A stretch of DNA of 64,000 bases from Prauserella muralis (GTDB taxonomy: Bacteria; Actinomycetota; Actinomycetes; Mycobacteriales; Pseudonocardiaceae): the NCBI RefSeq assembly GCF_003202285.1, contig NZ_MASW01000002.1, positions 1,116,001 through 1,180,000 of the forward strand, given 5' to 3'. Numbering within the stretch: the first letter of the stretch is position 1; each line of letters begins with the position of its first letter. The notes under the pieces were generated by a model that made no database searches, had not been told where the DNA came from, and worked only from the letters and a program-made list of their open reading frames with translations. Both the position numbers and the translations under genes were made by a program. This document shows, in pieces, positions 27,490 to 49,900 of this stretch.

Positions 27490-27526
27490 GTCTGTCCTTT
27501 CCGGTCGGTGCTCCTCGGCCGCTCGC

Positions 27527-28021: not shown

Positions 28022-28026
28022 CGTCC

Positions 28027-30131: not shown

Positions 30132-30182
30132 GACCCGTCCACTCCGTCGAGGTGTCACACAGTCCACAACGCACGACTCAGT

Positions 30183-30279
30183 ACGTCAAAGACGTGAATT
30201 CAAAGCGATCCATTGTGTAACGCAATGAGTGAGGTATTGCGCCACACAATGGGTCGCGTTCGATTTTGCTCTTTGACGT
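30183..30279. promoter_or_regulatory. 97-base dyad with divergent promoters and paired operators
   Basis: The 229 bases between divergent acyl-CoA dehydrogenases hold a nested inverted repeat centred on 30231. Outer arms ACGTCAAAGA (30183-30192) and TCTTTGACGT (30270-30279) carry a TTGACG -35 hexamer for each direction. Inner arms pair GCGA, CCATTGTGT and CGCAAT with ATTGCG, ACACAATGG and TCGC (30205-30257). Each inner half is itself a palindrome of form ATTGYG-N3-CRCAAT (30212-30226, 30236-30250). Candidate -10s are GAGGAT at 30297 and, on minus, TGGACT at 30161-30166. Confidence 0.65.
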
Positions 30280-30360
30280 GCTACGTCGGGTCTCCCGAGG
30301 ATGGGGTCGCGTGGCCGGCGACGCCACGACCGGAGCCCACAGCAGGGGAGTGACCACGGC

Positions 30361-31563
30361 ATGGATCTGCGCTACTCACCGGAGGCCGAACGGTTCCGGA
30401 AGGAGATCCGGCGCTGGCTGGACGAGTCGGTCCCCCCTGCGTGGCGCGTGCCCGGGTTCTGGCTCGAGCGCGACGGCACCACCGAGTCGCTCGACCTGCG
30501 GCGGCGGTGGGAACGGGACCGCTTCGACAACGGGTTCGCCGGGGTCGACTGGCCGGTCGAGCTCGGCGGGCGCGGGGCGGGCCACGAGACGCGCGCGGTG
30601 CACGACGAGGAGATGGCGCGAGCACGGGCCCCGATCGGTCCCTACCTCGGCCTGACCTACCTCGGCACGACCCTGCTCGGGCCGACGCTGCTGCGGTACG
30701 GGACCGCCGAGCAGAAGCGCAGGCTGCCGGGCATCCTCTCCGGTGACACGATCTGGTGCCAGGGATTCTCCGAACCGGAGAGCGGCAGCGACCTCGCCGG
30801 CCTGAGGACCACCGCCGTGCGCGACGGTGACGCGCTGGTGGTCACCGGTCAGAAGATCTGGACCTCCATGGCCCGCTACGGCGACGCGATGTTCGCCCTG
30901 GTGCGCACCGGGCCGCCGGACTCACGCCACCGCGGCATCACGTTCCTGCTGATCGACCTGACGTTGCCCGGCGTCGAGGTGCGGCCGATCCGCCAGCTGT
31001 CCGGATCGTGCGATTTGGGGCACGAGTTCCTCGACGCCGTGCGCGTACCGATCGAGGGCAACGTGGTCGGCGAGATCGACGGAGGGTGGGAGGTGGCCAG
31101 GTACCTGCTCTCGGTCGAACGGCAGGCCTCGCCGATCGGCCAGTACGTGGAGTTCCTGCACGAGCTGGACGACGTGATCGCCGCGGCCCGCCGCACGGCC
31201 AAGGATGGTCGCCCCGCCATCGAGCACCCGTCGATCCGGGCGCGGATCGCCCGCTGCAGGGCCGATCTCGAACTGCTGCGCGTGCGCGCCTACGACACGA
31301 TGACCCGGCTCGGCCGGGGCGAGGATCCGGGCAGCGAGGCCTCGGTCACCAAGCTGCTGTGGTCGCGGACGCGCCTGGCGATCGCCGACCTCGGTGCCGA
31401 CGTGCTGGGTGTGGACGGCCAGCGCAGCTCGGCGCCCGCGGGCGAGCGGGCAGGCCACCTGCGCTGGCGGCACCTGCAGGTGCGGGGTCAGCGCATCGCG
31501 GGCGGCACCGCCCAGATCCAGCGCACGCTGGTCGCGCGTGACCTGCTGGGGCTGCCCCGATGA
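30361..31563 (+). CDS. Acyl-CoA dehydrogenase (large/alpha-like subunit)
   Basis: A 400-residue FAD-dependent acyl-CoA dehydrogenase. Motifs are WCQGFSEPESGSDLAGLRTT, the FAD-binding VVTGQKIWTSMARYGD, GHEFLDAVRVPIEGNVVGEI, and the C-terminal RIAGGTAQIQRTLVARDLLG. The start has GGGGAG. The stop overlaps the enoyl-CoA hydratase start (ATGA). With the divergent dehydrogenase-like protein it could form a two-subunit enzyme acting on a branched or cyclic acyl-CoA, as in steroid or terpenoid side-chain breakdown. Confidence 0.88.
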   Translation: MDLRYSPEAERFRKEIRRWLDESVPPAWRVPGFWLERDGTTESLDLRRRWERDRFDNGFAGVDWPVELGGRGAGHETRAVHDEEMARARAPIGPYLGLTYLGTTLLGPTLLRYGTAEQKRRLPGILSGDTIWCQGFSEPESGSDLAGLRTTAVRDGDALVVTGQKIWTSMARYGDAMFALVRTGPPDSRHRGITFLLIDLTLPGVEVRPIRQLSGSCDLGHEFLDAVRVPIEGNVVGEIDGGWEVARYLLSVERQASPIGQYVEFLHELDDVIAAARRTAKDGRPAIEHPSIRARIARCRADLELLRVRAYDTMTRLGRGEDPGSEASVTKLLWSRTRLAIADLGADVLGVDGQRSSAPAGERAGHLRWRHLQVRGQRIAGGTAQIQRTLVARDLLGLPR

Positions 31564-32387
31564 GCGGCACCGCGATCGGCTCCGGAACCGCGCTGTTCGC
31601 GCTCGGCGGCGACGTCGGCACGGTGACCCTGAACCGGCCGCAGCGCCGCAACGCCATCTCGTGGCAGCTCGTCGAGGACCTGCTCGCCGCTCTGGAGCGG
31701 GCCAGGGCCGCCGAGGGACTGCGCGTTCTCGTCCTCACCGGAGCGGGCGGTGACTTCTGTGTCGGTGCCGACCTGGCCAGGGTCGGCTCGCGGCACGCGC
31801 AGGACCAGGAGACGCGCACGCTGCGAGGGCGCTCCGTGGCCGACGACCGCGCGCGGCTGGCCGTGGCGTCGACGGTGGTGGAGTCGATCGTGTCATTTCC
31901 CATGCCGACGATCGCCGCCGTCGACGGTGCCTGTGCCGGTGCCGGGCTGTCGCTGGCACTGGCCACCGACTTCCGGCTCGCCGCCCCCGCGGCGGTGTTC
32001 AACACGGCGTTCGTGAGCGCGGGCGTGTCCGGCGACCTGGGCAGCGCCTGGCTGCTCACGCGCGTGGTCGGCAGTGCCCGCGCGCGGACGCTGCTGCTCG
32101 ACCCTCGCAAGCTGACGGCGGCGGAGGCGCTGGATGCCGGGCTCGTCACCGAGGTCGCGGCGGATCTGCCCGCCCGGGTCGGCGAGCTGGCGGGCAAGCT
32201 CGCGGGCCAGGCGCCGAAGGCGATGCGGTACGCGAAGGAGAACCTGGCCGACGCCGGGCGGTACACGTTGGCCGACTACCTGCAACGCGAGGTGCCGCGC
32301 ATGGTGGACTGCGCACGCAGCGACGACGCGCGCCAGGCGGCACGCGCCTTCGTGGAGAAACGCCGACCGGTGTTCACCGGAGAGTAG
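31560..32387 (+). CDS. Enoyl-CoA hydratase/isomerase family protein
   Basis: A 275-residue crotonase-fold enzyme. The oxyanion-hole motifs are GGDFCVGADL and AVDGACAGAGLSLALATDFR. The two glutamates of typical hydratases are not obvious: the second motif reads FVSAGVSGDLGSAWLLTRVVG, where the usual ENLG/D position is SGDLG. It could therefore be an isomerase or other crotonase rather than a hydratase. It is translationally coupled to the dehydrogenase and lies nine bases before the CoA-transferase. Confidence 0.86.
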   Translation: MSGTAIGSGTALFALGGDVGTVTLNRPQRRNAISWQLVEDLLAALERARAAEGLRVLVLTGAGGDFCVGADLARVGSRHAQDQETRTLRGRSVADDRARLAVASTVVESIVSFPMPTIAAVDGACAGAGLSLALATDFRLAAPAAVFNTAFVSAGVSGDLGSAWLLTRVVGSARARTLLLDPRKLTAAEALDAGLVTEVAADLPARVGELAGKLAGQAPKAMRYAKENLADAGRYTLADYLQREVPRMVDCARSDDARQAARAFVEKRRPVFTGE

Positions 32388-32395
32388 GAGCGGGA

Positions 32396-33526
32396 ATGAC
32401 CACCCCACTGGCGGGCGTCCGGGTCGTCGAGTTCGGTCACTACATCGCGGCACCGGCGGCGACCCAGCTGCTGGCCGATCTCGGCGCCGACGTCGTCAAG
32501 GTCGAGCCTCCGGCCGGCGACCAGGCCCGCACCATCGGCGCGTACGGCGAGGGCATCGTGCTGGCGTTCAACCGCGGCAAGAGGTCGGTCGTGCTCGACC
32601 TCAAGCGAGCCGACGACAAGCGCGCGGCGCGGCAGCTGATCGCCGAGGCGGACGTGGTCGTCCAGAACCTCCGCGCCGGAACGCTGGCCCGCCTCGGCCT
32701 CGGTGCCGAGGATCTCCTGCCGGAACACCCCCGGCTCGTCCACGTCTCGGTCAGCGGATTCAGCTCCAAGGGACCCTCGGCCTCGCGGGCGGGCCTGGAC
32801 ATCGCCGCGCAGGCGGAAAGCGGCCTGATGTCGATCAACGGGGAGCAGGACGGCGACCCGCTGCGCGTCGGGTTCCCGATCGCCGACGTCGCCGCCAGCT
32901 ACGCGGTCGTGCAGGGTGTGCTCGCCGCGCTGCTGCGCCGGGAACGCACCGGCCGGGGCGGTGTCGTGGAGGTGTCGCTGGTTGACGCGATGATCCACAT
33001 GCAGTCCGCGATGTGGGGTGAGTGGCACGCCTCCGGCCACGAGCCGCGGCGCAAGGGCAACGGTCAGGCGACGGTGGCCCCGGCGGCGGATCTGATCCAC
33101 ACCGCCGACGGAGCCATCGTGCTGTCGGCCTACACCGCCGAGCACTTCGCCCGGCTGTGTGAACTCATGGGCAAGACGTGGATGCTCGAGGACCCGCGCT
33201 TCGCCGACAACCCGTCCCGGGTGGCGAACCGGGACGTCCTGCTGGCCGAGATCTCCGAGGCGTTCGGCACCCTCGGCACCGACGAGTGCCTTGCCGCGCT
33301 GGGCGAGCGCGGTCTCGTCGCGGCGGCGGTACGCACGTACCGGGAGGTGGCCGCGGCGCCCGACACGCGCTCCAGCGGGATCCTGACCACCGGGGTGAGC
33401 CCCGACGGCGAGCGCTACGCCATCCCTTCGCTGCCGTTCACGCTCGACGGCGTCGATCCCGCACCGGACCGGGCGGTGCCAAAGGCGGGCGCGGACACCG
33501 GCACCCTCCCGAGGCACCAGCCTTGA
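32396..33526 (+). CDS. CaiB/BaiF-type (class III) CoA-transferase
   Basis: A 376-residue class III CoA-transferase. GVRVVEFGHYIAAPAATQLL and LGADVVKVEPPAGDQAR form the CoA-binding N-terminus, and the catalytic Asp is present in ASRAGLDIAAQAESGLMSIN, unlike the paralogue at 13512. It is likely to charge the carboxylate imported by TctABC with CoA, feeding the two dehydrogenases and the crotonase. It shares their transcript. Confidence 0.88.
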   Translation: MTTPLAGVRVVEFGHYIAAPAATQLLADLGADVVKVEPPAGDQARTIGAYGEGIVLAFNRGKRSVVLDLKRADDKRAARQLIAEADVVVQNLRAGTLARLGLGAEDLLPEHPRLVHVSVSGFSSKGPSASRAGLDIAAQAESGLMSINGEQDGDPLRVGFPIADVAASYAVVQGVLAALLRRERTGRGGVVEVSLVDAMIHMQSAMWGEWHASGHEPRRKGNGQATVAPAADLIHTADGAIVLSAYTAEHFARLCELMGKTWMLEDPRFADNPSRVANRDVLLAEISEAFGTLGTDECLAALGERGLVAAAVRTYREVAAAPDTRSSGILTTGVSPDGERYAIPSLPFTLDGVDPAPDRAVPKAGADTGTLPRHQP

Positions 33527-33558
33527 CCGCCAAGGCGAGGCGGGCTTTGGATCACACG

Positions 33559-34596
33559 ATGAAGGTCCACGAACTGGAGTGCTTCCTCGCCGTCGTCGAT
33601 CACGGCAGCATCACCCGGGCCGCGTCGGCCCTCTACCTGGCCCAGCCTTCCCTGTCGCAGATCATCCGCAGGCTGGAAGCGGAGCTCAGCGTCGAGCTGT
33701 TCCGCCGGGTGGGGCGCGGGCTGGTGCTCACTCCAGCGGGTGAGGCGCTCGTCGGCCCGGCGCGGCAGGTGATTCGCGACCTCCAGCACGCTCGCCAGGT
33801 CGCCGACGAGTACCGCGGGCTGGAGCGCGGCAGGGTCGACCTCGCGATCTCCGCCTCGCTGACGTCGAACTTCCTGGCCGCGTGGGTGGGCCATTTCCGC
33901 CGCAAGCATCCGGGCCTCACCGTCCGTCTGATGCAGCACTACGGCGACACCGAGGACATCGTCGGCCTGATCAGATCGGGGGAGGCCGAGCTCGCCTACA
34001 CCGTGACGCCCGTGTCGCGGCACGGGATCGAGTGCATCCACGTCGGTGACGGGGAGGTCGTGCTGGCGCTGCCGCCCGGCTGGCGCACCGAGTTTCCCGA
34101 CCCGGTCCCCATCGCGATGCTCGACGGCCTGCCCATGATCATCGATCGGGGGTTCGGGCGGTCGTACCTGCAGTCGATTCGTGACGCCAGCGGGGTCGAG
34201 CCCGCCGTGGTCGTCGACGTCTCCGAGTCCGCGGGCCTGGTTCCCCTGATCGTCGCGGGAGCCGGTGCCGCGTTCCTGCCGATGCGCCAGGCCCTCGATG
34301 CGCGGCGGCGGGGAGCGAACCTGCGCCTGCTCGACCCGCTCACCTTCCGGCCGATCTACGCCATCATGCCTGCCACGCCGCTCTCGGTTCCGGCCCGCAA
34401 GTTCCTGGAACTCAGCAAGGAGAACCTGGAGCGGTGGCGGCGAGCCGTCGCGCGGCGCACCGATGAGGGGCGCAGCCTGCTGGAGGCCGCCGTCGAAGCC
34501 GACAACGTGATCGAGGCCGCCTACCAGCGCCTGGGGGAGCGGCCGAGTGAACCGGCCGGCCACCCGGAAACCGGCGACCGGTTCAGCCCGCTCTGA
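33559..34596 (+). CDS. LysR-family transcription regulator
   Basis: A 345-residue LysR regulator with HTH (MKVHELECFLAVVDHGSITR, LYLAQPSLSQIIRRLEAELS) and an effector domain (VGDGEVVLALPPGW, GLVPLIVAGAGAAFLPMRQA). It is about 40 residues longer than usual, ending in a charged tail (VEADNVIEAAYQRLGERPSE). The ATG at 33559 is chosen for the conserved MKVHELECF start; a TTG at 33523 overlapping the previous stop is possible. It ends the acyl-CoA operon and is a candidate ligand of the large dyad at 30183-30279. Confidence 0.88.
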   Translation: MKVHELECFLAVVDHGSITRAASALYLAQPSLSQIIRRLEAELSVELFRRVGRGLVLTPAGEALVGPARQVIRDLQHARQVADEYRGLERGRVDLAISASLTSNFLAAWVGHFRRKHPGLTVRLMQHYGDTEDIVGLIRSGEAELAYTVTPVSRHGIECIHVGDGEVVLALPPGWRTEFPDPVPIAMLDGLPMIIDRGFGRSYLQSIRDASGVEPAVVVDVSESAGLVPLIVAGAGAAFLPMRQALDARRRGANLRLLDPLTFRPIYAIMPATPLSVPARKFLELSKENLERWRRAVARRTDEGRSLLEAAVEADNVIEAAYQRLGERPSEPAGHPETGDRFSPL

Positions 34597-34659
34597 GCCC
34601 GCGGACGGTGACCCCTGCAGACCGCCGGCGGCGCGCCGCGTGCGCGACTCGGCACACAC

Positions 34660-34676
34660 TTTCCGTGTAGCGGAAA
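34660..34676. promoter_or_regulatory. Candidate IclR operator upstream of IclR gene
   Basis: TTTCCG-TGTAG-CGGAAA is a perfect 6-base inverted repeat in the 171-base gap before the IclR gene, about 100 bases upstream of its predicted transcript start. TACGCT at 34755-34760 is the likely -10. A related sequence lies before the acetoacetyl-CoA synthetase gene. Confidence 0.5.
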
Positions 34677-34767
34677 CCCGCACGCGTCCGGATGGCGCGG
34701 TGCGGGCTGGGCGTCGCCCGCCGTCGTGCTCCGGGCCCGGCGCCGTCGGTCGGCTACGCTGGGCGGT

Positions 34768-35577
34768 GTGGCCAAGGAGGGCGGGACGGGCGGAGACGGT
34801 CGTCGGTCGGTCACGGTCCGGGCGACGTCGCTACTGAACGCGTTCGACACCGAGCATCGGGCCCTGAACCTGTCCCAGCTGTCCCGTCGCAGTGGACTGC
34901 CACTGGCCACCGTGCACCGGCTGGCCGCCGATCTGGTGGAAAGCAGGCTGCTGGTCCGCAGGCTGGACGGCCGCTACGAGATCGGGGCGCTGTTGTGGCG
35001 GCTGGGCCGGCTCGCGCCACCCACCGAGCTTCGTGAGCTCGCCCTGCCCCATCTGCAGGACGTCGTCGTCACCACGGGCCACACGGTGCATCTCGCGGTG
35101 CTGGAAGGTACCCGTGCGCTCGTGATCGAGCGGCTGGCCGGCACGAAGACCGTCCCGACACGGCACAGCCCCGGCGACGACGTTCCGCTGTACTGCACCG
35201 CCGTCGGCAAGGCCCTGCTGGCGTATGCCGACCCCGCGCTGATCGACAGGGTCGCGGGCGAGCTCAGCCCGCACACGGCCTACACCATCACCAGCCCGGC
35301 CGTGCTGCACCGGCAGCTGGACGAGATCCGCAGAACCGGGCTGGCCCGCAGCGCGCAGGAGCACCGGCTCGGGGTGTCGTCACTCGCCGTACCCGTGCAC
35401 GGGCACGACGGCGTCGTGGCCGCGCTCGGCCTGCTGGCGCCCCTGCGGGCGCCCCGCCTCGCCGACGCGCTGCCGCATCTGCGTGCCGCGTCGGCCTCCG
35501 TCAGCGCCGACTTCCTGCGCAGCGGGCTCGCCGTCGCGTCCTCCGGCGCGGACGGATCGCGAAACGCTTCCGGATAG
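34768..35577 (+). CDS. IclR-family transcription regulator
   Basis: A 269-residue IclR regulator: winged HTH in the first 75 residues (TSLLNAFDTEHRALNLSQLS, GLPLATVHRLAADLVESRLL) and a GAF-like effector domain (TRHSPGDDVPLYCTAVGKAL, RSAQEHRLGVSSLAVPVHGH). The GTG at 34768 follows a TACGCT -10 by seven bases, so the message is probably leaderless. It sits 49 bases before acetoacetyl-CoA synthetase on the same strand, and IclR-like sites precede both genes, so it most likely controls the putative carboxylation cluster. Confidence 0.9.
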   Translation: MAKEGGTGGDGRRSVTVRATSLLNAFDTEHRALNLSQLSRRSGLPLATVHRLAADLVESRLLVRRLDGRYEIGALLWRLGRLAPPTELRELALPHLQDVVVTTGHTVHLAVLEGTRALVIERLAGTKTVPTRHSPGDDVPLYCTAVGKALLAYADPALIDRVAGELSPHTAYTITSPAVLHRQLDEIRRTGLARSAQEHRLGVSSLAVPVHGHDGVVAALGLLAPLRAPRLADALPHLRAASASVSADFLRSGLAVASSGADGSRNASG

Positions 35578-35596
35578 TGAAAGGGTCTTGTTGTCC
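35567..35596 (+). promoter_or_regulatory. IclR-like site and promoter of the carboxylation cluster
   Basis: CTTCCGGATAGTGAAAG (35567-35583) matches the palindrome at 34660 at 11 of 17 positions, keeping TTCCG, TAG and AA. Just downstream are TTGTCC (35591-35596), a 17-base gap and GACCAT (35614-35619), seven bases before the ATG at 35627. The site is then centred near -52, a usual activator position. The site overlaps the IclR stop codon. Confidence 0.5.
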
Positions 35597-35626
35597 CGCG
35601 GCCCGTGCTCGGTGACCATCTGGCGC

Positions 35627-37642
35627 ATGTCCAGCACGGTGACGCACCAGCGAGCAGGCCGGGGCCCGGTCCACGAGGGCGACCTGCTGTGGACGCCGCC
35701 GCCCGAGCGCGCCGAGAGCACGGCGCTCACCGCCTTCACCCGCTTCGCCGAGCAACGCACGGGCCGCACCTTCGCCGACTACGCGGCGCTGTGGCGCTGG
35801 TCGACCACCGAGCCGGCCGAGTTCTGGCAGCTGGTCTGGGACTTCTTCGACATTCGCTCCTCGGCACCGCACACGGCGGTGCTGACCGAGCCGGCGATGC
35901 CCGGCGCGCGGTGGTTTCCCGGCGCCCGCCTCAACTTCGCCGAGCACATCCTGCGCAGGGAACACCAGGACGGGCCTGCCCTGGTGTACGCCGCCGAAGC
36001 CGGGCCCGTGCACGAGCTGTCGCGGACGGACTTCGCCGGCCAGGTGCGAGCACTGGCGACCCAGCTGCGGTCGAGGGGGGTCGGTCCAGGCGACCGGGTG
36101 GTGGCCTACCTGCCCAACGTGCCGGAGGCGATGGTCGCGATGGTCGCGACTGCCTGCGTCGGTGCCGTGTGGGCATGCGTCTCCCCGGACTTCGGCGCGC
36201 GCGGCGCGCTCGACCGGCTCGCCCAGCTCAGCCCGAGGGTGCTGTTCGCCGCCGACGGCTACCGCTACGGCGGACGGGAGTTCGACCGGCGCGGCGAGGT
36301 GGCCGACCTGGTGGCGGGGCTGCCCACGCTGCGCGAGATCGTGCGGGTGCCGGTGCTGGGACTCGACGTACCCGGCACGACGTGGAACGACGTCGTGGAC
36401 ACCCGCGCGGTCGCCGCCGGCGAGTTCGCCTGCGAGCAGGTGCCCTTCGACCACCCGCTGTGGGTGCTGTTCACCTCGGGAACCACCGGCCTGCCCAAGC
36501 CGATCGTGCAGGGCCACGGCGGCATCCTGCTGGAGCAGCTCAAGACACAGGCCTTCCACGCGGACCTCCGCCCCGGCGACCGGGCGTTCTTCTTCACCAC
36601 CACGGGATGGATGATGTGGAACTTCCTGGTCGGCACCCTGCTGTCCGGCAGCGTTCCCGTCCTCTACGACGGCAACCCGACGCACCCCGGCGTGGACGAG
36701 CTCTGGCGGATCGCGCAGGACAGCCGCGCGAGCCTGTTCGGTGCGAGTCCCACGTTCGTGGAACTGATGCGCAAGAACGGGGTGGTTCCCCGGGAACGCT
36801 TCGACCTCTCCAGCCTGCGGACGGTGATGCCGGCAGGTTCCCCGGTCTCGCCGGCGATCACCGCCTGGTTCTACGAGAACGTCAAGGACGAGCTGTGGGT
36901 CGCCACCGGCAGCGGGGGAACCGACGTCTGCACCGGTCTGGTCGGAGGGGTACCCACGCTGCCGGTGCGTGCGGGAGAGATCCAGGGCCGGTCGCTCGGC
37001 GTCGCCGCCGAGGCGTGGGACGACGCGGGAAACGCCGTCATCGGCAAGCCCGGCGAGCTGGTCGTCACCCGGCCAATGCCTTCCATGCCGCTGTACCTCT
37101 GGGGCGACGAGGACGGTGAGCGGTACCGGGCCAGCTACTTCGACGTCTTCCCGGGGGTCTGGCGGCACGGCGATGTCCTGGAGATCAACGAGCGGGGTGG
37201 CTGCTTCGTGCGCGCGCGTTCCGATGCCGTGCTCAACCGGCACGGCGTCCGCATCGGCACCGCCGAGATCTACCGGGTCGTCGAGGACGATCCGGCGGTG
37301 TCGTCGTCGCTGGTGGTCAATCTGGACCTGCCGGACGGAGGGTTCTTCATGCCACTGTTCGTCGAGCTCGCCCCCGGGTCCGAACTGGACGACACGGTGC
37401 GCGCGCGCCTGCGCAGGCGGCTGCGCGAGGAGTACTCGCCGCGACACGTCCCCGATCGGATCATCGGCGTGCGCACGATCCCGCTGACCCGCAGTGGCAA
37501 GAAGATGGAGGTGCCCGTTCGCAGGCTCCTGCTGGGCGCCGAGGCCGGCTCGGTCGCCGACCCCGCCGCCATGGCCGACCCCGGGGCGCTGGCCGACTTC
37601 GTCGAGTACGCCCGCCACCAGCGGGACTTTGCCCTCGCCTGA
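35627..37642 (+). CDS. Acetoacetyl-CoA synthetase (acetoacetate-CoA ligase)
   Basis: A 671-residue AMP-forming acetoacetate-CoA ligase, about the expected length. Family features are the WSTTEPAEFWQLVWDFFDIR and AMPGARWFPGARLNFAEHIL N-terminal segments, the adenylate motif FTSGTTGLPKPIVQGHGG (from about residue 282), the acetoacetate-specific TTTGWMMWNFLV, and the catalytic Lys region TRSGKKMEVPVRRLLLG. It converts acetoacetate, ATP and CoA to acetoacetyl-CoA. Being the first gene of the phosphotransferase/carboxylase operon, it indicates that acetoacetate or a close beta-keto acid is the pathway product. The next gene starts 26 bases later. Confidence 0.92.
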   Translation: MSSTVTHQRAGRGPVHEGDLLWTPPPERAESTALTAFTRFAEQRTGRTFADYAALWRWSTTEPAEFWQLVWDFFDIRSSAPHTAVLTEPAMPGARWFPGARLNFAEHILRREHQDGPALVYAAEAGPVHELSRTDFAGQVRALATQLRSRGVGPGDRVVAYLPNVPEAMVAMVATACVGAVWACVSPDFGARGALDRLAQLSPRVLFAADGYRYGGREFDRRGEVADLVAGLPTLREIVRVPVLGLDVPGTTWNDVVDTRAVAAGEFACEQVPFDHPLWVLFTSGTTGLPKPIVQGHGGILLEQLKTQAFHADLRPGDRAFFFTTTGWMMWNFLVGTLLSGSVPVLYDGNPTHPGVDELWRIAQDSRASLFGASPTFVELMRKNGVVPRERFDLSSLRTVMPAGSPVSPAITAWFYENVKDELWVATGSGGTDVCTGLVGGVPTLPVRAGEIQGRSLGVAAEAWDDAGNAVIGKPGELVVTRPMPSMPLYLWGDEDGERYRASYFDVFPGVWRHGDVLEINERGGCFVRARSDAVLNRHGVRIGTAEIYRVVEDDPAVSSSLVVNLDLPDGGFFMPLFVELAPGSELDDTVRARLRRRLREEYSPRHVPDRIIGVRTIPLTRSGKKMEVPVRRLLLGAEAGSVADPAAMADPGALADFVEYARHQRDFALA

Positions 37643-37668
37643 TCCGTCCGCACGAAGAGGAGACAACG

Positions 37669-39489
37669 ATGTCCCAGCCACCCGGCGAGCGATCGTTCCC
37701 GCTGCCGTCCCAGGTTCCCACGGTCCCCGGCGCGGAGGGCTGGCAGGAGATGTATCCCTACTTCAGCCGCTTCCAGCCCGAGGACGACCATCGGTTCTGG
37801 TTCTACAACTCGATGCACTTTCCCGAGGCGGTCCCGGCGTTCGACAGCATCACCTCCGAGATCCCGTACACCGCGATCGGCGCGAACACCGCCCGGCTGT
37901 TCTCGTTCCCGACGACGATGGGCATCGAGTACCGGATCGTCAACGGCCGCGTCTACATCACCGCGAACCCTGTCGTCGACGAGGCGGAACAGGCCGAGCG
38001 GCTGGAGCACTTCCAGGAGCGGGCGGGGCACTACTACTCCCACTGGGACCGGCTCTACGCCGAGTGGCAGCAGCGGATCGACGCGCTGATCGCCGAGATC
38101 GAGGCCATCGAGGTCCCGCGGCTCGGTGAGCTCGAGGACCTCGCGGTCATCACCGAGGCTCGCGGCGTCGCCTCGAACCACTTCCTGCGGGAGAACTTCC
38201 ACCGCTGCATCGACCTCTACTCCAAGATGTGGCACCACCACACCGAGTTCCTGATGCTCGGGTACGGCGCCTACGTCGTGTTCTTCGAGTTCTGCACCAC
38301 GGCGTTCCCGGAGATCGGTGACCAGACCGTGGCGCGCATGGTCGCCGGCATGGACGTCACGATGTACCGGCCGGACGACGAGCTCAAGAAGCTGGCGGCC
38401 TTGGCCGTGGAACTCGGCCTCGGGGACCTGTTCGCCGAGGGCGGCCACCCGGGCACCGTGCTGAGCTCGCTGCGTGAGCGCGGTGACGCGGGCGCGAGGT
38501 GGCTGGAGGCGCTGGAGGCGGCGAAGAACCCGTGGTTCAACGTCTCGGTCGGTGACGGCTTCTACCATCACCACCTGTCCTGGGCCGACGACCTCAGCGT
38601 GCCGTTCTCGGCGCTGTCCGGCTACGTCGAGCAGGTCGCCAACGGCGAGGACCTCAGGAGGCCGACCGGCCGGCTGGCCGAGGAGCGGGACCGGATCGCC
38701 GCGGAGTACCGCGCCCTGCTGCAATCGGAGGAGGAGAAGGCAGCCTTCGACCAGATGCTCGGACTCTGCAGGCAGGTGTTTCCCTACATCGAGTCCCACA
38801 AGTTCTACTGCGAGCACTGGTTCACGACCCGCTTCTTCCAGAAGATCCGCGCGTTCGGTCAGCTGCTCGCCGAGCGCGGTGTCCTCGAGCAGGCCGACGA
38901 CGTCTTCCACCTCCGGCACGTCGAGGTCGAGGACGCGCTCGCCGACGTGATGCTCGCCTGGGCCTCCGGCGGGAGGGAGCTCGGCGCACGGCACTGGCAG
39001 CCGATCGTCGCCCGCCGCAAGCAGATCGTCGACGCACTGGCTCAGTGGTCACCTCCGCCCGCGCTCGGCCCGGTGCCCGAGGCGCTCAACGACCCCGCGG
39101 TGCGGATGCTCTGGGGCGTCACCGACGAGACGATCGAGACCTGGCTCGGCGACCAGGAACTCGACGAACACACCGTTCGCGGGAACGCGGCCTCGCCCGG
39201 CGTCGTGGAGGGCACCGCCCGGGTCCTGATGAACGTCAACGAGATCGGCCGCATCCGCGAAGGCGAGATTCTCGTCTGTCCGGTCACCGCCCCCAGTTGG
39301 GGCCCGGTGTTCGGCAAGATCGCCGCGGCCGTCTCCGACATCGGCGGCACGATGTCGCACGCGGCGATCGTCGCCCGCGAGTACGGCATGCCCGCCGTCG
39401 TCGGTACCGGCAAGGCCACGAGCGTCATCAAGACCGGCGACCGCGTCCGCGTCGACGGTGACCGTGGCATCGTCACGGTCGTCGGCTGA
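37669..39489 (+). CDS. PEP-synthase-like phosphotransferase, swivel-His subunit (PpsA-like)
   Basis: A 606-residue protein ending in a PEP-utilizer swivel domain (about residues 505-606): AASPGVVEGTARVLMN and GGTMSHAAIVAREYGMPAVV, with the phosphohistidine at His564. The first 500 residues are helical, rich in Trp, Tyr and His (MYPYFSRFQPEDDHRFWFYN, YSKMWHHHTEFLMLGYGA) and match no domain I know; they replace the pyruvate/PEP-binding barrel of PEP synthase. Size and layout resemble the larger subunit of phenylphosphate synthase. It should pass a phosphoryl group from the partner at 39501 to a small acceptor bound by the N-domain. RBS is AGAGGAG. Confidence 0.82.
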   Translation: MSQPPGERSFPLPSQVPTVPGAEGWQEMYPYFSRFQPEDDHRFWFYNSMHFPEAVPAFDSITSEIPYTAIGANTARLFSFPTTMGIEYRIVNGRVYITANPVVDEAEQAERLEHFQERAGHYYSHWDRLYAEWQQRIDALIAEIEAIEVPRLGELEDLAVITEARGVASNHFLRENFHRCIDLYSKMWHHHTEFLMLGYGAYVVFFEFCTTAFPEIGDQTVARMVAGMDVTMYRPDDELKKLAALAVELGLGDLFAEGGHPGTVLSSLRERGDAGARWLEALEAAKNPWFNVSVGDGFYHHHLSWADDLSVPFSALSGYVEQVANGEDLRRPTGRLAEERDRIAAEYRALLQSEEEKAAFDQMLGLCRQVFPYIESHKFYCEHWFTTRFFQKIRAFGQLLAERGVLEQADDVFHLRHVEVEDALADVMLAWASGGRELGARHWQPIVARRKQIVDALAQWSPPPALGPVPEALNDPAVRMLWGVTDETIETWLGDQELDEHTVRGNAASPGVVEGTARVLMNVNEIGRIREGEILVCPVTAPSWGPVFGKIAAAVSDIGGTMSHAAIVAREYGMPAVVGTGKATSVIKTGDRVRVDGDRGIVTVVG

Positions 39490-39500
39490 GAGGAGTGCCC

Positions 39501-40589
39501 ATGAACACCACGCCACCGATCCTGCACTTCACCGAGCTCGGCCGGGACGATGCCGGGGTCGCGGGCGGCAAGGGTGCCAGCCTCGGGGAACTGCTGCGCG
39601 CGGGCATCCGCGTGCCCGACGGCTTCGTCGTGACCACCGCGGCGTTCCGGTCGGCGGTCACGGCACTGGACCTCGGATCCCGCGTCGCGGCGCTCGACCC
39701 CGCCGACGCCGACGGCCTCGCCGCGACGTGCGCCGAGCTGCGGTCGGTCGTCGAGTCGGCGCCGCTGCCCTCCGACGTCGCCGAGGCCGTTCTGGGCGCC
39801 TACACCGAGTTCGCCGCCGGTTGCGGTGACCGGTACCTGCCGGTGGCCGTTCGCTCCAGCGCCACCAGCGAGGACTCCGCCGAGGCCAGCTTCGCGGGGC
39901 TGCAGGACACCTACCTGTGGATCCGCGGCGAGGACCAGGTCCTCGACCATGTCCGGCGCTGCTGGGCGAGTCTGTACAGCGCCGAGTCGGTGACGTACCG
40001 GTTGCGCCGCGGTGTTGCCGAGGACGAGCTGGCCATGGCTGTCGTCGTCCAGCGGATGGTCGCCGCACGCACCTCCGGCGTCATGTTCACCCGCAGCCCG
40101 CTCACCGGCGACCGTTCGGTGGTCGCCATCGACGCCAGCTGGGGTCTCGGGTCGGCCGTGGTCAGCGGGGACGTCACCCCCGACTCGTTCGTGGTCAGCA
40201 AGGTGACCGGCGACATCGTTCGCCGGACGGTGTCGGTCAAGACACGCTGGCACCAGCCCGGCCCCGGCGGCGACGGCACGGTGGACGGTGACGTTCCGGA
40301 GCACCTGCAGGCCGCGCCGTCGCTGTCGGACGACGAGATCGCCGAGCTGGTCGCGCTCGCGCGGAGAGTGGAGGACCACTACGGGTGCCCGCAGGACATC
40401 GAATGGGCCGTGCCGAGAACGGCACCGCCCGGCGAGAACGTCGTCGTGCTGCAGAGCCGCCCCGAGACGGTGTGGAGCGGACGAGACGCGACCGCGGACC
40501 GGCCCAAGGCCGCCGTGCCCACGGCGCGCGCCTTCGACCACGTCTTCAACCTGCTGCGCGGTACCCGCGCCGGGGGACGGCGGCCATGA
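39501..40589 (+). CDS. PEP-synthase-like ATP-binding subunit (PpsB-like)
   Basis: A 362-residue protein equal to the N-terminal ATP-grasp-like domain of PEP synthase/PPDK. GVAGGKGASLGELLRAGIRV, LPVAVRSSATSEDSAEASFA, GLQDTYLWIRGEDQVLDHVR and the C-terminal DIEWAVP and VVLQSRPETVW match that domain. It should use ATP to phosphorylate the histidine of the swivel subunit encoded 11 bases upstream. Such stand-alone halves are known from phenylphosphate synthase and a few related kinases. The ATG has GAGAGGAG; its stop overlaps the carrier-protein start. Confidence 0.87.
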   Translation: MNTTPPILHFTELGRDDAGVAGGKGASLGELLRAGIRVPDGFVVTTAAFRSAVTALDLGSRVAALDPADADGLAATCAELRSVVESAPLPSDVAEAVLGAYTEFAAGCGDRYLPVAVRSSATSEDSAEASFAGLQDTYLWIRGEDQVLDHVRRCWASLYSAESVTYRLRRGVAEDELAMAVVVQRMVAARTSGVMFTRSPLTGDRSVVAIDASWGLGSAVVSGDVTPDSFVVSKVTGDIVRRTVSVKTRWHQPGPGGDGTVDGDVPEHLQAAPSLSDDEIAELVALARRVEDHYGCPQDIEWAVPRTAPPGENVVVLQSRPETVWSGRDATADRPKAAVPTARAFDHVFNLLRGTRAGGRRP

Positions 40590-41110
40590 CGCTGAGCCCC
40601 GACGACGTCCGCGACGTGCTGCGGGCGCTGGATTCCAGCGGCCTCGACGAGCTCCATCTCGAGCTGAGCGACTTCACGCTCACCGTGCGGCGGCACGGCA
40701 CGAGTGGCTGGACCGCCGAGCAGCAGGTGCTGCGCACACCCTCGGTCGAGCAGGCCACCACCGCGCCGGCGGGGGCCGCTGAGCGGCCGCGGCACCGCGC
40801 AGCGGACCACGACGGGGCCGTGGCGGTGCGGCCGCCGCTGCCGGGCACCTTCTACCGGGCGCCGCAACCGGGTGCGCCACCGTTCGTGGACGTCGGCGAC
40901 GACGTCGACGAGGACACCGTCGTCGGCATCGTCGAGACGATGAAGATGATGACACCGGTGCACGCCGGTGTCCGGGGAACGGTCGTGGAGTTCCGCACGG
41001 ACAACGGCGAGCTCGCCGACACCGAGGCGGTGCTGCTTCTCGTGGAGCCCGCGCCCGGCTCGTCCGGTGAGGACGGCACCGGCGGCGACGGCGATGGGGC
41101 GGGCCGATGA
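40586..41110 (+). CDS. Biotin carboxyl carrier protein
   Basis: A 174-residue carrier. Its C-terminal biotinyl domain has the acceptor Lys120 in the motif IVETMKMMTPVHAG. An N-terminal element (DELHLELSDFTLTVRRHG) as in AccB-type carriers is joined by a Pro/Ala/Arg linker, and a Gly/Asp tail (about residues 158-174) follows the domain, which is unusual. A similar LTVRRH element ends the carboxyltransferase at 42468. It overlaps both neighbours by ATGA, so the stoichiometry of carrier, kinase half and carboxylase is coupled. Confidence 0.9.
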   Translation: MTLSPDDVRDVLRALDSSGLDELHLELSDFTLTVRRHGTSGWTAEQQVLRTPSVEQATTAPAGAAERPRHRAADHDGAVAVRPPLPGTFYRAPQPGAPPFVDVGDDVDEDTVVGIVETMKMMTPVHAGVRGTVVEFRTDNGELADTEAVLLLVEPAPGSSGEDGTGGDGDGAGR

Positions 41111-42468
41111 GGATCCGCCGCCTGCTCATCGCCAACCGCGGCGAGATCGCCGTGCGGGTGATCCGCACGTGCCGGCGGCTCGGGATCGAGTCGGTGCTCG
41201 CCGCCTCCGACGCGGATCTGGACGGTCTGCCCGCACGCCTGGCCGACCGGGTCGTCCGGCTCGGTCCCGCGCCCGCTTCGGAGTCCTATCTGGACATCGA
41301 CGCGGTCGTCGCGGCGGCGCGGTCGGTGAGTGCCGATGCGGTGCACCCCGGATACGGCTTTCTGTCGGAGAACGCGGCGCTGGCGCGCGCGTGCGCCGCC
41401 GCGGACGTCGTCTTCGTCGGCCCGGCACCGGATTCCCTGGAAGCGGTCGGCGACAAGCTCTCCGCCCGCCGGCATGCCGTCGCCGCCGGGCTCGACGTGA
41501 TACCCGGCGGGCAGGCCACCGACCTGGCGGAGGCGCGCGCACTGGCCGAGGCGATCGGATATCCGCTTCTCGTCAAGGCGGTCGGCGGTGGCGGCGGCCG
41601 GGGCATGAAGCTCGTGCGCTCCGCGGGCGAGCTGTCGCGGACGCTCGATCTCGCGATCTCCGAGGCCGCGGCCGCCTTCGGCGACCCGCGGGTGTATCTG
41701 GAACGCTTCGTCGCCTCCGGCAGGCACGTCGAGGTGCAGGTCCTCGGAGACGGCAGCAGGGCGGTGGCTCTCGGGGATCGCGACTGCTCGGTGCAACGCC
41801 GCTACCAGAAGCTGGTCGAGGAAGCGCCGGCGCCGCTGCTCGCCGAACAGACGCACACCGCGATGGCACGAGCGGCCCTCGCCCTGGCGACCCACCTTCG
41901 TTATCGCGGGCTCGGCACCGTCGAACTGCTCTACGACAGGCAGCTGCGGACGTTCTACTTCCTGGAGATGAACGCCCGGATCCAGGTCGAGCACCCCGTC
42001 ACCGAGATGGTCACGGGGCTGGATCTGGTGGCGGAGCAACTGCGGGTCGCCGAGGGATTGCCGCTGCAGCTTCGCCAGGAGGACGTCGTCCTTTCCGGAC
42101 ACGCGGTCGAGTGCCGGATCAACGCCGAGGACTGGACGCGAGGCTTCCGGCCGTCCCCGGGGCGGGTCGACCGGGTCGTGCTGCCCGCCGGTGACGGCAT
42201 CCGCGTCGACACCCACGTGCAGGGCGGCTCCGTCGTGCCGCCGCACTACGACTCGTTGCTGGCCAAGCTGATCGTGCACGGGACGGACCGTGCCGACGCG
42301 CTCGCCCGGGCCCGCGCCGCTCTGGGGCTGCTGTCGATCGACGGCGTGGACACGACGGCGCCGATGCACGAGGCGCTGCTGGCCGACCCCGAGTTCACCG
42401 CCGGGGGAGTGGACAGCACGTTCTTCGACCGGTTCGCCGGCAAGACCCGCCTTCTGGAGGTGTCGTGA
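41107..42468 (+). CDS. Biotin carboxylase subunit
   Basis: A 453-residue biotin carboxylase, the full length of AccC. MRIRRLLIANRGEIAVRVIR opens the biotin-carboxylase N-domain; the ATP-grasp glycine loop reads GGGGGRGMKLV; the catalytic segment FLEMNARIQVEHPVTEMVTG and C-terminal DSLLAKLIVHG are intact. It carboxylates the biotin on the carrier using ATP and bicarbonate. Because the partner carboxyltransferase is of the pyruvate-carboxylase type, this subunit is not part of an acyl-CoA carboxylase. Start and stop overlap neighbouring genes. Confidence 0.92.
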   Translation: MRIRRLLIANRGEIAVRVIRTCRRLGIESVLAASDADLDGLPARLADRVVRLGPAPASESYLDIDAVVAAARSVSADAVHPGYGFLSENAALARACAAADVVFVGPAPDSLEAVGDKLSARRHAVAAGLDVIPGGQATDLAEARALAEAIGYPLLVKAVGGGGGRGMKLVRSAGELSRTLDLAISEAAAAFGDPRVYLERFVASGRHVEVQVLGDGSRAVALGDRDCSVQRRYQKLVEEAPAPLLAEQTHTAMARAALALATHLRYRGLGTVELLYDRQLRTFYFLEMNARIQVEHPVTEMVTGLDLVAEQLRVAEGLPLQLRQEDVVLSGHAVECRINAEDWTRGFRPSPGRVDRVVLPAGDGIRVDTHVQGGSVVPPHYDSLLAKLIVHGTDRADALARARAALGLLSIDGVDTTAPMHEALLADPEFTAGGVDSTFFDRFAGKTRLLEVS

Positions 42469-43949
42469 TGGCCGAGGTCGGGCTGGTCGACGTGTCACTG
42501 CGGGACGGCAACCAGAGCCTGTGGGGCGCGGCGGGCCTGCGCACCGGGCACGTCCTGCAGCTGGCACCGCTGCTGGAACGTGTCGGGTTCCGCGCGCTCG
42601 ACTACAGTTCGAGCACCGCCATGGGGATGCTCGTGCGGGTACACCGAGAGAACCCATGGGACCTGATCCGGCGCACCAGGGCGGTGATGCCGACGACCAA
42701 GCTGCAGTTCATCGGCACCGGGTTCCGGTTCATCTCCTGGCAGAACTCGCATCCGGACACCATGCAGCTGGTCTACGACCGGCTGGTCGCCTGCGGGATC
42801 GACCGGGTCGTCGTACTCGACCCGATGCACGACATGGAGGCCGTCCGAGCAACGGCCCGCAGGCTCAAGAAGGCCGGGGTCGACGAGGTGGTCGGCGCGC
42901 TGACGTTCACGATCAGCGCTGTCCACGACGACGCCTTCTACGCCGACCTCGCCCGGCAGCTGCGCGAGTGCCCTGACGTGGATCGCGCCTACGTCAAGGA
43001 CCCGGCGGGCATCCTGACCGCCGAGCGGGCCCGCACTCTGCTGCCCGCGGTCAGGAAACAACTCGGTGACACCCCGCTCGAACTGCACTCGCACGCCACG
43101 ATCGGCCTGTCGGCGCTGACCTACTCGATCGCACCGGAGCTCGGCGTCGAGGTCGTGCAAACGGCCTGTGGCGCGCTGGGTAACGGCTCGTCGTTGCCGG
43201 AGGCGCGGCGGACGGTCGCCAACCTGCGCGAGATGGGCCACCGGGTGGACATCGACGACCGGGCTCTCGGCCTGGCGTGCGACTTCGTCACGCGGCTGGC
43301 CGGCGCGGAGGAGCTTCCCGCGGGACAGCCGCAGGAGTTCGACGCCGCGTTCCTGCATCACCAGACCGCGGGCGGAGTGCTGACGACGACCAGGCGGCAG
43401 CTCCGCGAGATCGGCATGGAGGACCGCTTCGGCGCGCTCATCGAGGAGGTCGGCCGCGTTCGCGCGGAGCTGGGACATCCGATCATGGTGACCCCGTTCC
43501 CGCAGATGGTCGTCTCCCAGGCACTGTTCAACGTGATCGGGCAGCGCTACTCCAACGTCCCGGACCAGGTGATCCGGTACGCACTGGGCAGTTTCGGCCG
43601 CCCGACGGCGCCGATCGACGCGGATGTGCTCGACCGCATCCTCGACCGGCCGCGTGCGCGGGAGCTGCGCGCGGAGCCTCCGCCTCCGTCCCCTGCCGAG
43701 CTGCGCCGCCGGTTCGGTCCGGCGATCAGCGACGAGGAACTCCTCCTCCGGGCCCACATGCCTGCCGAGCAGGTCGACGCGATGATCGCCGCCGGGCCGC
43801 CGAGCAGGCACTACAACCCCGCCGTGACGCCGGTGCTCGCCCTGCTCGACGGGCTCGGGCAGCGCAGGACGATCCACGACCTCACGGTGGACAAACCCGG
43901 GCTGCGCCTGACCGTGCGGCGTCATGCGGAAGGAACCACCCGTGCCTGA
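42468..43949 (+). CDS. Carboxyltransferase subunit of pyruvate-carboxylase/OadA type
   Basis: A 493-residue TIM-barrel carboxyltransferase of the HMGL-like/PYC_OADA class. DVSLRDGNQSLWGA (Asp8, Arg12, Gln16), the carbamylated-lysine motif VKDPAGILT (Lys177) and the metal histidines LELHSHATIG (His207, His209) are visible. The class moves CO2 to the methyl carbon of enolpyruvate, so a methyl ketone is a chemically close acceptor. Several positions differ from true pyruvate carboxylase (LWGA for LLAT, DPAG for DMAG), in line with a different substrate. ATG at 42468 follows GGAGG. Confidence 0.85.
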   Translation: MAEVGLVDVSLRDGNQSLWGAAGLRTGHVLQLAPLLERVGFRALDYSSSTAMGMLVRVHRENPWDLIRRTRAVMPTTKLQFIGTGFRFISWQNSHPDTMQLVYDRLVACGIDRVVVLDPMHDMEAVRATARRLKKAGVDEVVGALTFTISAVHDDAFYADLARQLRECPDVDRAYVKDPAGILTAERARTLLPAVRKQLGDTPLELHSHATIGLSALTYSIAPELGVEVVQTACGALGNGSSLPEARRTVANLREMGHRVDIDDRALGLACDFVTRLAGAEELPAGQPQEFDAAFLHHQTAGGVLTTTRRQLREIGMEDRFGALIEEVGRVRAELGHPIMVTPFPQMVVSQALFNVIGQRYSNVPDQVIRYALGSFGRPTAPIDADVLDRILDRPRARELRAEPPPPSPAELRRRFGPAISDEELLLRAHMPAEQVDAMIAAGPPSRHYNPAVTPVLALLDGLGQRRTIHDLTVDKPGLRLTVRRHAEGTTRA

Positions 43950-44796
43950 CTCTGACCCCGCGGCCCTGGACCGCCTGGGCCACGTACGTGGCTTCGTCCT
44001 CGACCTGGACGGAACCCTGGTGATGGGCGACCGCGACAACCGGGGCCTGCGCCCGCTGCCGGGGGCCCTGGATCTGGTGCACCTGCTGCTCGAGAGGGGC
44101 CTGCCGTTCTGCGTGTTCACCAACGGCACGGTGAAGACACCGCGGCAGTGTGCGGACGCGCTGCGGGACGCGGGGTTCCCGATGGCCGAAGAGGCGGTCC
44201 TCACGCCGGCGATCTCCGCGGCTCAGGTCTTCCGCCAGCGGGGGCATCGAAGGGTCATGGTCCTCGGTGGCAAGGGCATCACCGAACCACTGGAGGCAGC
44301 CGGCATCGACACCCTGCCCCCGCTGCGGGGTACGAGCGTCGATGCCGTGTTCGCGGGCTGGTATCGCCACGAGCTCACGTTCGAGTCGCTGGAGGCGGCC
44401 TGTTTCGCGGTGTTCGAGGGAGCCGCCTTCTACAGCGCCTCGGAGTCGCTGTTCTTCGCCACCTCCGAAGGGCCCACGCTCGGCACCTCGCGGGCGATCA
44501 GTGCCGTCGTGCGTGACGTCACCCGCACCGAGGTGACCGTCGTCGGCAAGCCTGCCCTGCCTGCCCTGCGGGCGGCGGAAAGCCTGCTCGGCATCCCGGC
44601 CGCCGAGCTGGCGGTCGTCGGCGACGACCCGGACCTCGAGGTGCCGATGGCGCACCGGGGCGGTGCGATGGCCGTCGCCGTGCACACCGGCATCGGCCAC
44701 GCGCAGTCGTTCACCGGCCTGCCCGACGACGCCCGCCCTCACCTGGACGTGGCCGACGTGGGTGTTCTCGCGAGGCTGCTCGCCGGTTCCGGCTGA
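43942..44796 (+). CDS. HAD-IIA (NagD-like) phosphatase
   Basis: A 284-residue HAD-superfamily hydrolase with the IIA cap. The nucleophile motif FVLDLDGTLV gives Asp21/Asp23; motif II is CVFTNGTVKTP; the Lys motif is VVGKPALPAL and the last acidic motif VVGDDPDLEVP. GTG at 43942 is preferred to ATG at 43924 because GGAAGGA lies seven bases before it; it overlaps the carboxyltransferase stop. As last gene of the cluster it may remove a stray phosphorylated intermediate, or dephosphorylate a product; this is inference. Confidence 0.85.
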   Translation: MPDSDPAALDRLGHVRGFVLDLDGTLVMGDRDNRGLRPLPGALDLVHLLLERGLPFCVFTNGTVKTPRQCADALRDAGFPMAEEAVLTPAISAAQVFRQRGHRRVMVLGGKGITEPLEAAGIDTLPPLRGTSVDAVFAGWYRHELTFESLEAACFAVFEGAAFYSASESLFFATSEGPTLGTSRAISAVVRDVTRTEVTVVGKPALPALRAAESLLGIPAAELAVVGDDPDLEVPMAHRGGAMAVAVHTGIGHAQSFTGLPDDARPHLDVADVGVLARLLAGSG

Positions 44797-44863
44797 CGCG
44801 CGTCGTGATCCGGCTGGGACGACGCCTCGTTGTTCGCCTCGCGGGAGTGGTTTCGGTGGGAAG

Positions 44864-45751
44864 ATGACCGGCGTGGAGTCCTACGTCGAGCGCCCGCCGC
44901 TGCCGGAGCTGGCCGGTGTGGTGCGGACGGTCTGGATCCAGCGCACCGGTGAGGCCGCCTACGTGCAACGGCACCTGCCCACGGGCGGGGTCGAGCTCCA
45001 CTGCCCGATCGGTGGCCGTCCCCGCCTGGCCGGGCCACTGACCGGTCCGCGGATCGAGCTCATCCCGGCGCACACCACCCTCGTCGGTGTGCGTTTCCAG
45101 CCAGGAGCCGCGCCGCCATTCCCGGCGGCGCTCGACGACCTGGCTGACCAGTGTGTGGGCCTGGGGCAGCTGTGGGGCAGCGCCGCGGAGCGTCTCGCGG
45201 AGGAGACGGCCCTGGCCGAAACGCCCGAGCAGGCGCTTCGGGTGGTGCAGCACCATCTGGTGCGGGAGCTCCGGAGTGCGCCCGGCGTCGATCCGCTGGT
45301 GCGCGAAGCGGTCCGGGCGCTCATGCCGTGGAACCCGGTCGACATCGACACCCTGGCCGCTCACCTGGCGCTGTCCGCGAGCCAGTTGCGCCGCCGCTGC
45401 CTGCACGCCGTGGGGATGAGTCCCAAGGTCCTGCAGCGGACGCTGCGATTTCAGGGGTTCCTCGCGCTGGCCCAGGCCGGCGCTGTCGCCTCGGGCAGGC
45501 GCGGCGGGGACGGCATGGCGGGTCTGGCGGTGGACGTGGGCTATGCCGACCAGGCACACCTGAGCCGGGAGTGCCTGCGCCTGACGGGGCTCAGCCCGCG
45601 CAGGCTGCTCGGCGGCGATCTGGACCGCTGCGCCTGCGGCCACGAGCACTCCGCCTCCTACCGGCCGTTCCTGGCCACGCGCAGCAGGCCGCCGCTGGCG
45701 CGTGGTGACCCTGCGCGATTCGTTCAAGAACCGTCGCCGCGCCGCCGCTAG
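44864..45751 (+). CDS. AraC-family transcription regulator
   Basis: A 295-residue regulator with an N-terminal DUF6597-like sensor (ELAGVVRTVWIQRTGEAAYV, LPTGGVELHCPIGG, RIELIPAHTTLVGVRFQPGA) and a C-terminal AraC HTH (DIDTLAAHLALSASQLRRRC, GYADQAHLSRECLRLTGLSP). A GTG at 44873 is an alternative start, since GAAGAT at 44860-44865 would serve as a leaderless -10 for it. It lies just before the flavoprotein/reductase operon and is the probable regulator of it. Confidence 0.87.
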   Translation: MTGVESYVERPPLPELAGVVRTVWIQRTGEAAYVQRHLPTGGVELHCPIGGRPRLAGPLTGPRIELIPAHTTLVGVRFQPGAAPPFPAALDDLADQCVGLGQLWGSAAERLAEETALAETPEQALRVVQHHLVRELRSAPGVDPLVREAVRALMPWNPVDIDTLAAHLALSASQLRRRCLHAVGMSPKVLQRTLRFQGFLALAQAGAVASGRRGGDGMAGLAVDVGYADQAHLSRECLRLTGLSPRRLLGGDLDRCACGHEHSASYRPFLATRSRPPLARGDPARFVQEPSPRRR

Positions 45752-45754
45752 CGT
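45749..45754 (+). promoter_or_regulatory. -10 element of leaderless FAD-oxidoreductase gene
   Basis: TAGCGT fits TANNNT and ends seven bases before the GTG at 45762. It overlaps the AraC stop codon and supports 45762 over the upstream in-frame GTG at 45702, which would overlap the AraC gene. Confidence 0.45.
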
Positions 45755-45761
45755 CGATCTC

Positions 45762-47084: not shown

Positions 47085-47099
47085 TCGACGAGGAGGATC

Positions 47100-47705
47100 A
47101 TGAGCAAGGTCATCAGCGGCCACGCCGTCTCGGTCGACGGCTACATCAGTGGCCGCACGCCCGACGGGGACGAGGAGTTCGGACGCGGTCTCGGTGACGC
47201 GCCGATGCTCTTCGACTGGTACTTCGACGGGGACACGCCGAGCCGGGTGTTCGACGGGTTCCGGCTCAGTGAGCCCAGCGCCCGGTTGTTCGACGCCCTG
47301 GCGGCCCGGCTGGGGGCGGTCGTCGCGGGACGCGTCACCTACGAGCACTCGAGCCGGTTCGGAGGCGGTAGCCCGCATCCGGCGGCACCGCTCGTCGTCG
47401 TCAGCCACCGGCCCGTGCCCGGGATCGGCGAGGCGCAGACGCTGGTCACCACCGGCATCGGGGACGCCATCGCCGCGGCCCGCGCGGCCGCAGGCGGCAA
47501 GGACGTCGGCCTGATGGGTGGCGGTGCGCTGACCTCCGCACTGGAGGAGGGTCTCGTCGACGAGCTGGTCCTGCACCAGGTGCCCATCCTGCTGGGTGCG
47601 GGGCGCCGCTTCTTCCAGCAGCTTCCGAAACACGTGCGCCTCCGGCTGCTGCAGGCCGTCCCGGCGCCCGGCGTGACCCACCTGCACTACGAGGTGCTCC
47701 GATGA
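47100..47705 (+). CDS. Dihydrofolate reductase family protein (RibD C-terminal fold)
   Basis: A 201-residue RibD-C/DHFR-fold reductase ([69 protein letters not shown]). Members of this non-classical group reduce pteridine- or flavin-like substrates with NADPH; true folate reduction is unlikely. AGGAGG is next to the ATG. Its stop overlaps the next start (ATGA). Confidence 0.87.
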
Positions 47706-48622: not shown

Positions 48623-48635
48623 AGGGAGCACACGC

Positions 48636-49019: not shown

Positions 49020-49055
49020 GCAGCTCCGCGCCGGCGCACGGGGTTGCGCTGCCCC

Positions 49056-49403: not shown

Positions 49404-49408
49404 CGCGC

Positions 49409-49891: not shown

Positions 49892-49900
49892 GCCCGGTGA

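Follow-up and report, generated by a model that had tools for sequence, protein, structure and literature searches.

This locus raises the question of what is encoded by an open reading frame (37669 to 39489) whose product carries a recognizable Pfam domain only at its C terminus, and in particular of what the preceding ~500 residues do. Within the window (i.e., the whole 64-kb stretch of DNA that was analyzed), the frame runs uninterrupted on the forward strand and encodes 606 amino acids; its GC3 of 0.94 is typical for coding sequence. The sole Pfam match is PEP-utilizers at residues 530 to 600, in agreement with an earlier reading made from the letters alone (the sequence-only reading), which had confined the known domain to a C-terminal swivel with His564. 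This histidine closes the motif SDIGGTMSH, an instance of the T/SxxGGxxxH criterion for HpeHI-type proteins. A Pfam scan of residues 1 to 494 of 29 homologues returned no family beyond two stray weak matches. In NCBIfam, NF006153 (named "hypothetical protein") spans residues 9 to 605 with 791 bits, above its cutoff of 578. We assign the product, with a probability of roughly 0.88, as the large (H) subunit of an HpeHI-type two-component phenolic dikinase, part of an Hpe operon and with a hydroxyphenyl methyl ketone as substrate. It is laid out as an acceptor-binding domain (~1 to 495) followed by a phosphohistidine swivel (~500 to 606), and represents a further example of an already described enzyme, not a new kind of enzyme. 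The Hpe assignment rests on observed gene content and order, homology, fold, catalytic residues, and clade.

The Hpe (hydroxyphenylethanone) pathway was described in 2022 to 2026 for acetovanillone and 4-hydroxyacetophenone (PMC9618137, PMC12167813, PMC13101465). In Rhodococcus rhodochrous GD02, HpeHI phosphorylates the phenol of either compound (PMC9618137, PMC12167813), HpeCBA carboxylates the phosphorylated ketone, HpeD then dephosphorylates the product, and the remaining side-chain steps have been proposed for HpeE and HpeF (PMC9618137). In the window, the large-subunit gene lies in a tight seven-gene operon (35627 to 44796; order E-H-I-C-A-B-D) with 4-nt overlaps at three junctions. The operon, its probable regulator, and the residues discussed below are as follows.

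34726 to 35577, forward strand: IclR-type protein (Pfam IclR_C and HTH_IclR), likely regulator of the operon.
35627 to 37642, forward strand: HpeE-like acyl-CoA synthetase of the acetoacetate--CoA ligase family, 671 aa (NCBIfam NF002937, 888 bits, and TIGR01217, 761 bits, both over cutoff), starting at the ATG at 35627.
37669 to 39489, forward strand: HpeH-like large subunit, 606 aa (NF006153 over cutoff, PEP-utilizers, RPH fold, carboxylase-linked clade).
38572 to 38574, forward strand: H302, a position where column counts show mainly His within the carboxylase-linked clade.
38791 to 38802, forward strand: E375 to K378, with E375 the probable counterpart of catalytic Glu667 and K378 that of Lys670 in rifampin phosphotransferase (RPH) by profile-profile alignment.
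39334 to 39360, forward strand: SDIGGTMSH swivel motif with catalytic His564, in the same register as HpeH S573 to H581 (PMC12167813).
39495 to 40589, forward strand: HpeI-like ATP-grasp subunit, 364 aa (Pfam PPDK_N, 1.4e-102).
40586 to 41110, forward strand: HpeC-like biotin carrier protein with an ETMKM biotin site, 174 aa (Pfam Biotin_lipoyl), its ATG at 40586 overlapping the stop of the ATP-grasp gene.
41107 to 42468, forward strand: biotin carboxylase subunit of the Hpe-type carboxylase (Pfam Biotin_carb_N, CPSase_L_D2, and Biotin_carb_C).
42465 to 43949, forward strand: PycB/OadA-like carboxyltransferase subunit of the Hpe-type carboxylase (Pfam PYC_OADA; NCBIfam PycB-like, below cutoff).
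43924 to 44796, forward strand: HpeD-like HAD phosphatase of the NagD family (Pfam Hydrolase_6 and Hydrolase_like).

This is an Hpe-type pathway operon: the three-part biotin-dependent carboxylase, the NagD-like phosphatase, and the acyl-CoA synthetase of the Hpe gene set are all present. Counting against the assignment, the operon holds no gene for HpeF (a CouO-like hydrolase), and HpeF of Rhodococcus JS3073 found no match as a query in the 64-kb window. A regulatory role for the IclR-type protein is likely because an IclR-type frame also lies upstream of the JS3073 kinase gene. Elsewhere in the window, positions 25963 to 33526 carry a separate set of genes that suggests an acid-degradation cluster unrelated to Hpe: two for acyl-CoA dehydrogenases and one each for an enoyl-CoA hydratase and a family III CoA-transferase; a TctA transporter gene is close by. 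Two berberine-bridge-type FAD oxidases (FAD_binding_4 plus BBE) are encoded at 45702 to 47084 and 7291 to 9162.

To place the large subunit among its relatives, we used a tree of 66 full-length homologues, in which clades were labelled by gene neighborhood and not by the CreH, PpsA, or GD02 sequences themselves. The groups track their neighbor genes. The window protein falls in a 15-member clade (99/98) together with JS3073 and 11 of the 12 carboxylase-linked proteins; the exception, a Nonomuraea kinase on a long branch, counts against the assignment. A carboxylase adjoins the kinase in 11 of the 15 members, and of the other four, one (L014) sits on a 4-kb contig. The E-H-I-C-A-B-D order recurs in Blastococcus litoris (kinase 84% identical to the window protein over 598 columns) and in two genomes of the host's family (72 to 73%), and H-I-C-A-B-D-E is found in Rhizobium leguminosarum BT01 and in JS3073, where the CouO-like HpeF follows HpeE. 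JS3073 is a fair stand-in for GD02, since Ser573, Met579, Cys580, and His581 of its H protein carry the same numbers as in published GD02 HpeH and the masses of its subunits lie near the reported values. In JS3073 (L002:11277-14475), the masses are 49.5 kDa for the biotin carboxylase and 57.5 kDa for the carboxyltransferase, while the GD02 paper lists HpeB (49.3 kDa) as the carboxyltransferase and HpeA (57.4 kDa) as the biotin carboxylase (PMC9618137); given these masses, the two names may have been swapped there. Some genomes carry two H-type copies close together (L021, L027, L070, and L076), and in the Sphaerobacter locus among them (L021), two H copies flank a single ATP-grasp gene (H-I-H). 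Deep-branching H-I pairs with no carboxylase, P450, or UbiD neighbor occur at two haloarchaeal loci (L006 and L061).

The sequence-only reading had left it to the N-terminal part to decide whether the acceptor is a ketone, a phenol, or something else. The operon goes most of the way to answering this and points to a phenol that carries a methyl ketone as the most likely substrate; its phenolic hydroxyl would be phosphorylated and the ketone side carboxylated next. Which ketone is a finer matter. Identity of the window protein to GD02-type H (JS3073 as stand-in) is only about 49%. HpeH shares nearly as much, ~45%, with CreH and PpsA, so the sequence does not fix which substrate is used. The same machinery might serve mainly another phenolic ketone (one with a longer side chain, a dimethoxy compound such as acetosyringone, or another natural aryl ketone) instead of 4-hydroxyacetophenone or acetovanillone, a possibility we take seriously but consider improbable. 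In its favor, positions conserved within the core of the clade differ from JS3073 HpeH (e.g., K378 versus Asn and R94 versus Tyr), and the preference for acetosyringone differs between published pathways (PMC13101465). Against it, His302 and further clade-typical residues are common to the window protein and JS3073 HpeH, the carboxylase, phosphatase, and ligase set is identical in kind to that of Hpe, and the genome has genes of the 4-hydroxybenzoate, vanillate, and protocatechuate types. At position 302, His predominates in the carboxylase-linked clade, Cre-type proteins have Asp, and PpsA-type proteins have Asp or Glu, which makes H302 a candidate specificity residue. A more specific proposal, which we rate as somewhat more doubtful still, is that the E-H-I-C-A-B-D type (the window, B. 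litoris, and the two same-family genomes) forms a distinct Hpe sublineage whose pocket (e.g., K378, H302, and D296) may be tuned to such another ketone.

A hydroxyphenyl ketone is also favored over an aliphatic one. An early idea, drawn from the acetoacetyl-CoA ligase and PycB-like genes, was acetone-type carboxylation, in which the kinase would convert an aliphatic ketone (e.g., acetone) to its enol phosphate, carboxylation would follow, and acetoacetyl-CoA ligase would act after that. The NCBIfam name of the ligase (acetoacetate--CoA ligase) and the PycB-like carboxyltransferase fit this scheme, but the kinase of the characterized pathway phosphorylates the phenol, and it is the phosphorylated aryl ketone that the carboxylase then uses (PMC9618137); moreover, the characterized relatives with this N-terminal domain (RPH, HpeHI, CreHI, and PpsAB) phosphorylate a hydroxyl group. 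A literature search found nothing linking acetone, biotin, and enol phosphate. Given the Hpe papers, the idea was dropped, and we regard it as very unlikely.

Phenylphosphate synthase and the cresol-phosphorylating enzymes, which the sequence-only reading had named for comparison, proved to be the right set. That the protein is itself the phenylphosphate synthase large subunit (PpsA) acting on phenol has even slimmer chances than the enol route: identity to UbiD-linked proteins is roughly 38 to 50% and the two-subunit organization is alike, but no gene for a CBS subunit, UbiD, or UbiX lies alongside (window positions 30001 to 50000), and the protein falls outside the UbiD-linked clades. The main UbiD-linked sets form their own clades, and two more UbiD-linked rows sit on unresolved branches, all outside the window clade. 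A cresol kinase of the CreH type feeding a P450 is just as improbable; the protein is 42 to 47% identical to P450-linked proteins, but P450, ferredoxin, and HD-phosphatase genes are absent from the same interval (30001 to 50000), and the P450/HD-phosphatase-linked (Cre) set forms one separate clade (100/100) outside that of the window.

For the N-terminal part itself, AlphaFold2 models were made of the whole large subunit (pLDDT 89.7) and of residues 1 to 494 alone (92.6). Structure prediction of the subunit by itself, a check suggested with the sequence-only reading, returned the fold of RPH: the whole-protein model aligns with RPH over 488 residues (Z 24.1, rmsd 4.2, 18% identity), and the N-domain model alone over 368 residues (Z 20.1, rmsd 4.0), with the next unrelated chain at Z 6.1. 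Foldseek gave six matches for the N domain under E 0.001, every one RPH. In these models the N-terminal part is mainly helical, as the sequence-only reading had noted, and adopts the predicted fold of the rifampin-binding domain of RPH. A PEP/pyruvate TIM barrel, named beforehand as the finding that would overturn the proposal, was seen neither in the N-domain fold searches, where RPH alone stands out, nor as PEP-utilizers_C by Pfam. The suggestion of a split PEP synthase or PPDK half, prompted by a swivel and an ATP-grasp partner homologous to their PEP synthase counterparts, is contradicted by this barrel-free, helical RPH fold with its C-terminal swivel and has a negligible probability. RPH itself was also rejected, as the window has two separate genes and NF041857 scores 113.6 bits against a cutoff of 999. 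The AlphaFold model of published HpeH is likewise related to RPH, its N-terminal part corresponding to the rifampin-binding domain, and HpeH by itself transfers phosphate between phenols (PMC12167813), which upholds the view that the N-terminal part must hold the acceptor site. In two-component phenolic dikinases (HpeH, CreH, and PpsA), these ~500 residues form the domain that binds the substrate. The description of this part as unassigned thus holds for Pfam only, given the NF006153 match, the RPH fold, and a domain already described in these enzymes and in RPH. Although its fold and role are known, the domain lacks a Pfam model, and proteins of this type are therefore easily mislabelled as PEP synthase-like.

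RPH residues were mapped by profile-profile alignment in both global and local form. The two agree in aligning E375 with Glu667, K378 with Lys670, and His564 with His825; outside the E375 and swivel regions the mapping is unsure, with global and local disagreeing at 523/527. Both E375 and H377 are invariant in 66 of 66 homologues, and the second transfer in RPH requires Glu667 (PMC4844700). Counting against the assignment, catalytic Arg666 of RPH is replaced by Ile374, a position hydrophobic in all 66 homologues. In the ATP-grasp subunit, K26, R120, T139, and E303 are conserved counterparts of RPH K22, R117, T136, and E297. GD02 HpeI was not recognizable among PDB sequence matches, the best of which were PEP synthases; 9goj (387 aa) is labelled PEP synthase.

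By analogy with the published homologues, the partner encoded by the adjacent gene would bind ATP and pyrophosphorylate swivel His564, from which the gamma-phosphate would be released. The swivel would then move to the helical N-terminal domain and pass the beta-phosphate to the phenolic hydroxyl of a hydroxyphenyl methyl ketone of the 4-hydroxyacetophenone or acetovanillone type. The biotin carboxylase from the operon would then carboxylate the acetyl group, after which the HAD phosphatase would remove the phosphate and the CoA ligase would activate the beta-keto acid. Release of acetyl-CoA, which leaves 4-hydroxybenzoate or vanillate, would fall to a CouO-like hydrolase whose gene lies elsewhere in the genome. 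The best match to JS3073 HpeF is a CouO-like protein, 61% identical, encoded outside the window (G000:C3:1341380) by a gene that adjoins an SDR gene and is near an acyl-CoA ligase gene. The host could use the products because the genome encodes PcaH (over cutoff), a VanA_C protein, and a PobA-like protein, though the last, below its family cutoff, counts against this.

This locus adds a further actinobacterial lineage to those that may degrade lignin-derived hydroxyphenyl ketones. Clusters that combine the kinase with the carboxylase are reported to be uncommon (PMC13101465), and a divergent natural version offers material for mapping specificity.

Among known systems, RPH of Listeria monocytogenes shares the acceptor domain plus swivel fold and the counterparts of Glu667/Lys670 and His825, but is a single chain with its own ATP-grasp domain and a large antibiotic acceptor, and its Arg666 is not conserved in the window protein. 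PpsABC of Thauera aromatica (phenylphosphate synthase) has the same type of large and ATP-grasp subunits, but adds a third, CBS subunit and a UbiD-type carboxylase and belongs to separate clades. CreHI of Corynebacterium glutamicum (4-cresol kinase) is of the same two-subunit dikinase family, but is paired with a P450 and an HD phosphatase and lies in a separate clade; Cre-type proteins have Asp at the position of His302. HpeHI of R. rhodochrous GD02 differs in its H subunit (about 49% identity, JS3073 as stand-in), in the residue before the catalytic His (Cys in HpeH, Ser in the window), in the place of the CoA ligase gene (downstream of D, whereas it is upstream of H in the window), and in the presence of HpeF; like the window system, it has two components, the same swivel motif and catalytic His register, an ATP-grasp partner, and a linked biotin-dependent carboxylase, NagD-like phosphatase, and acyl-CoA synthetase.
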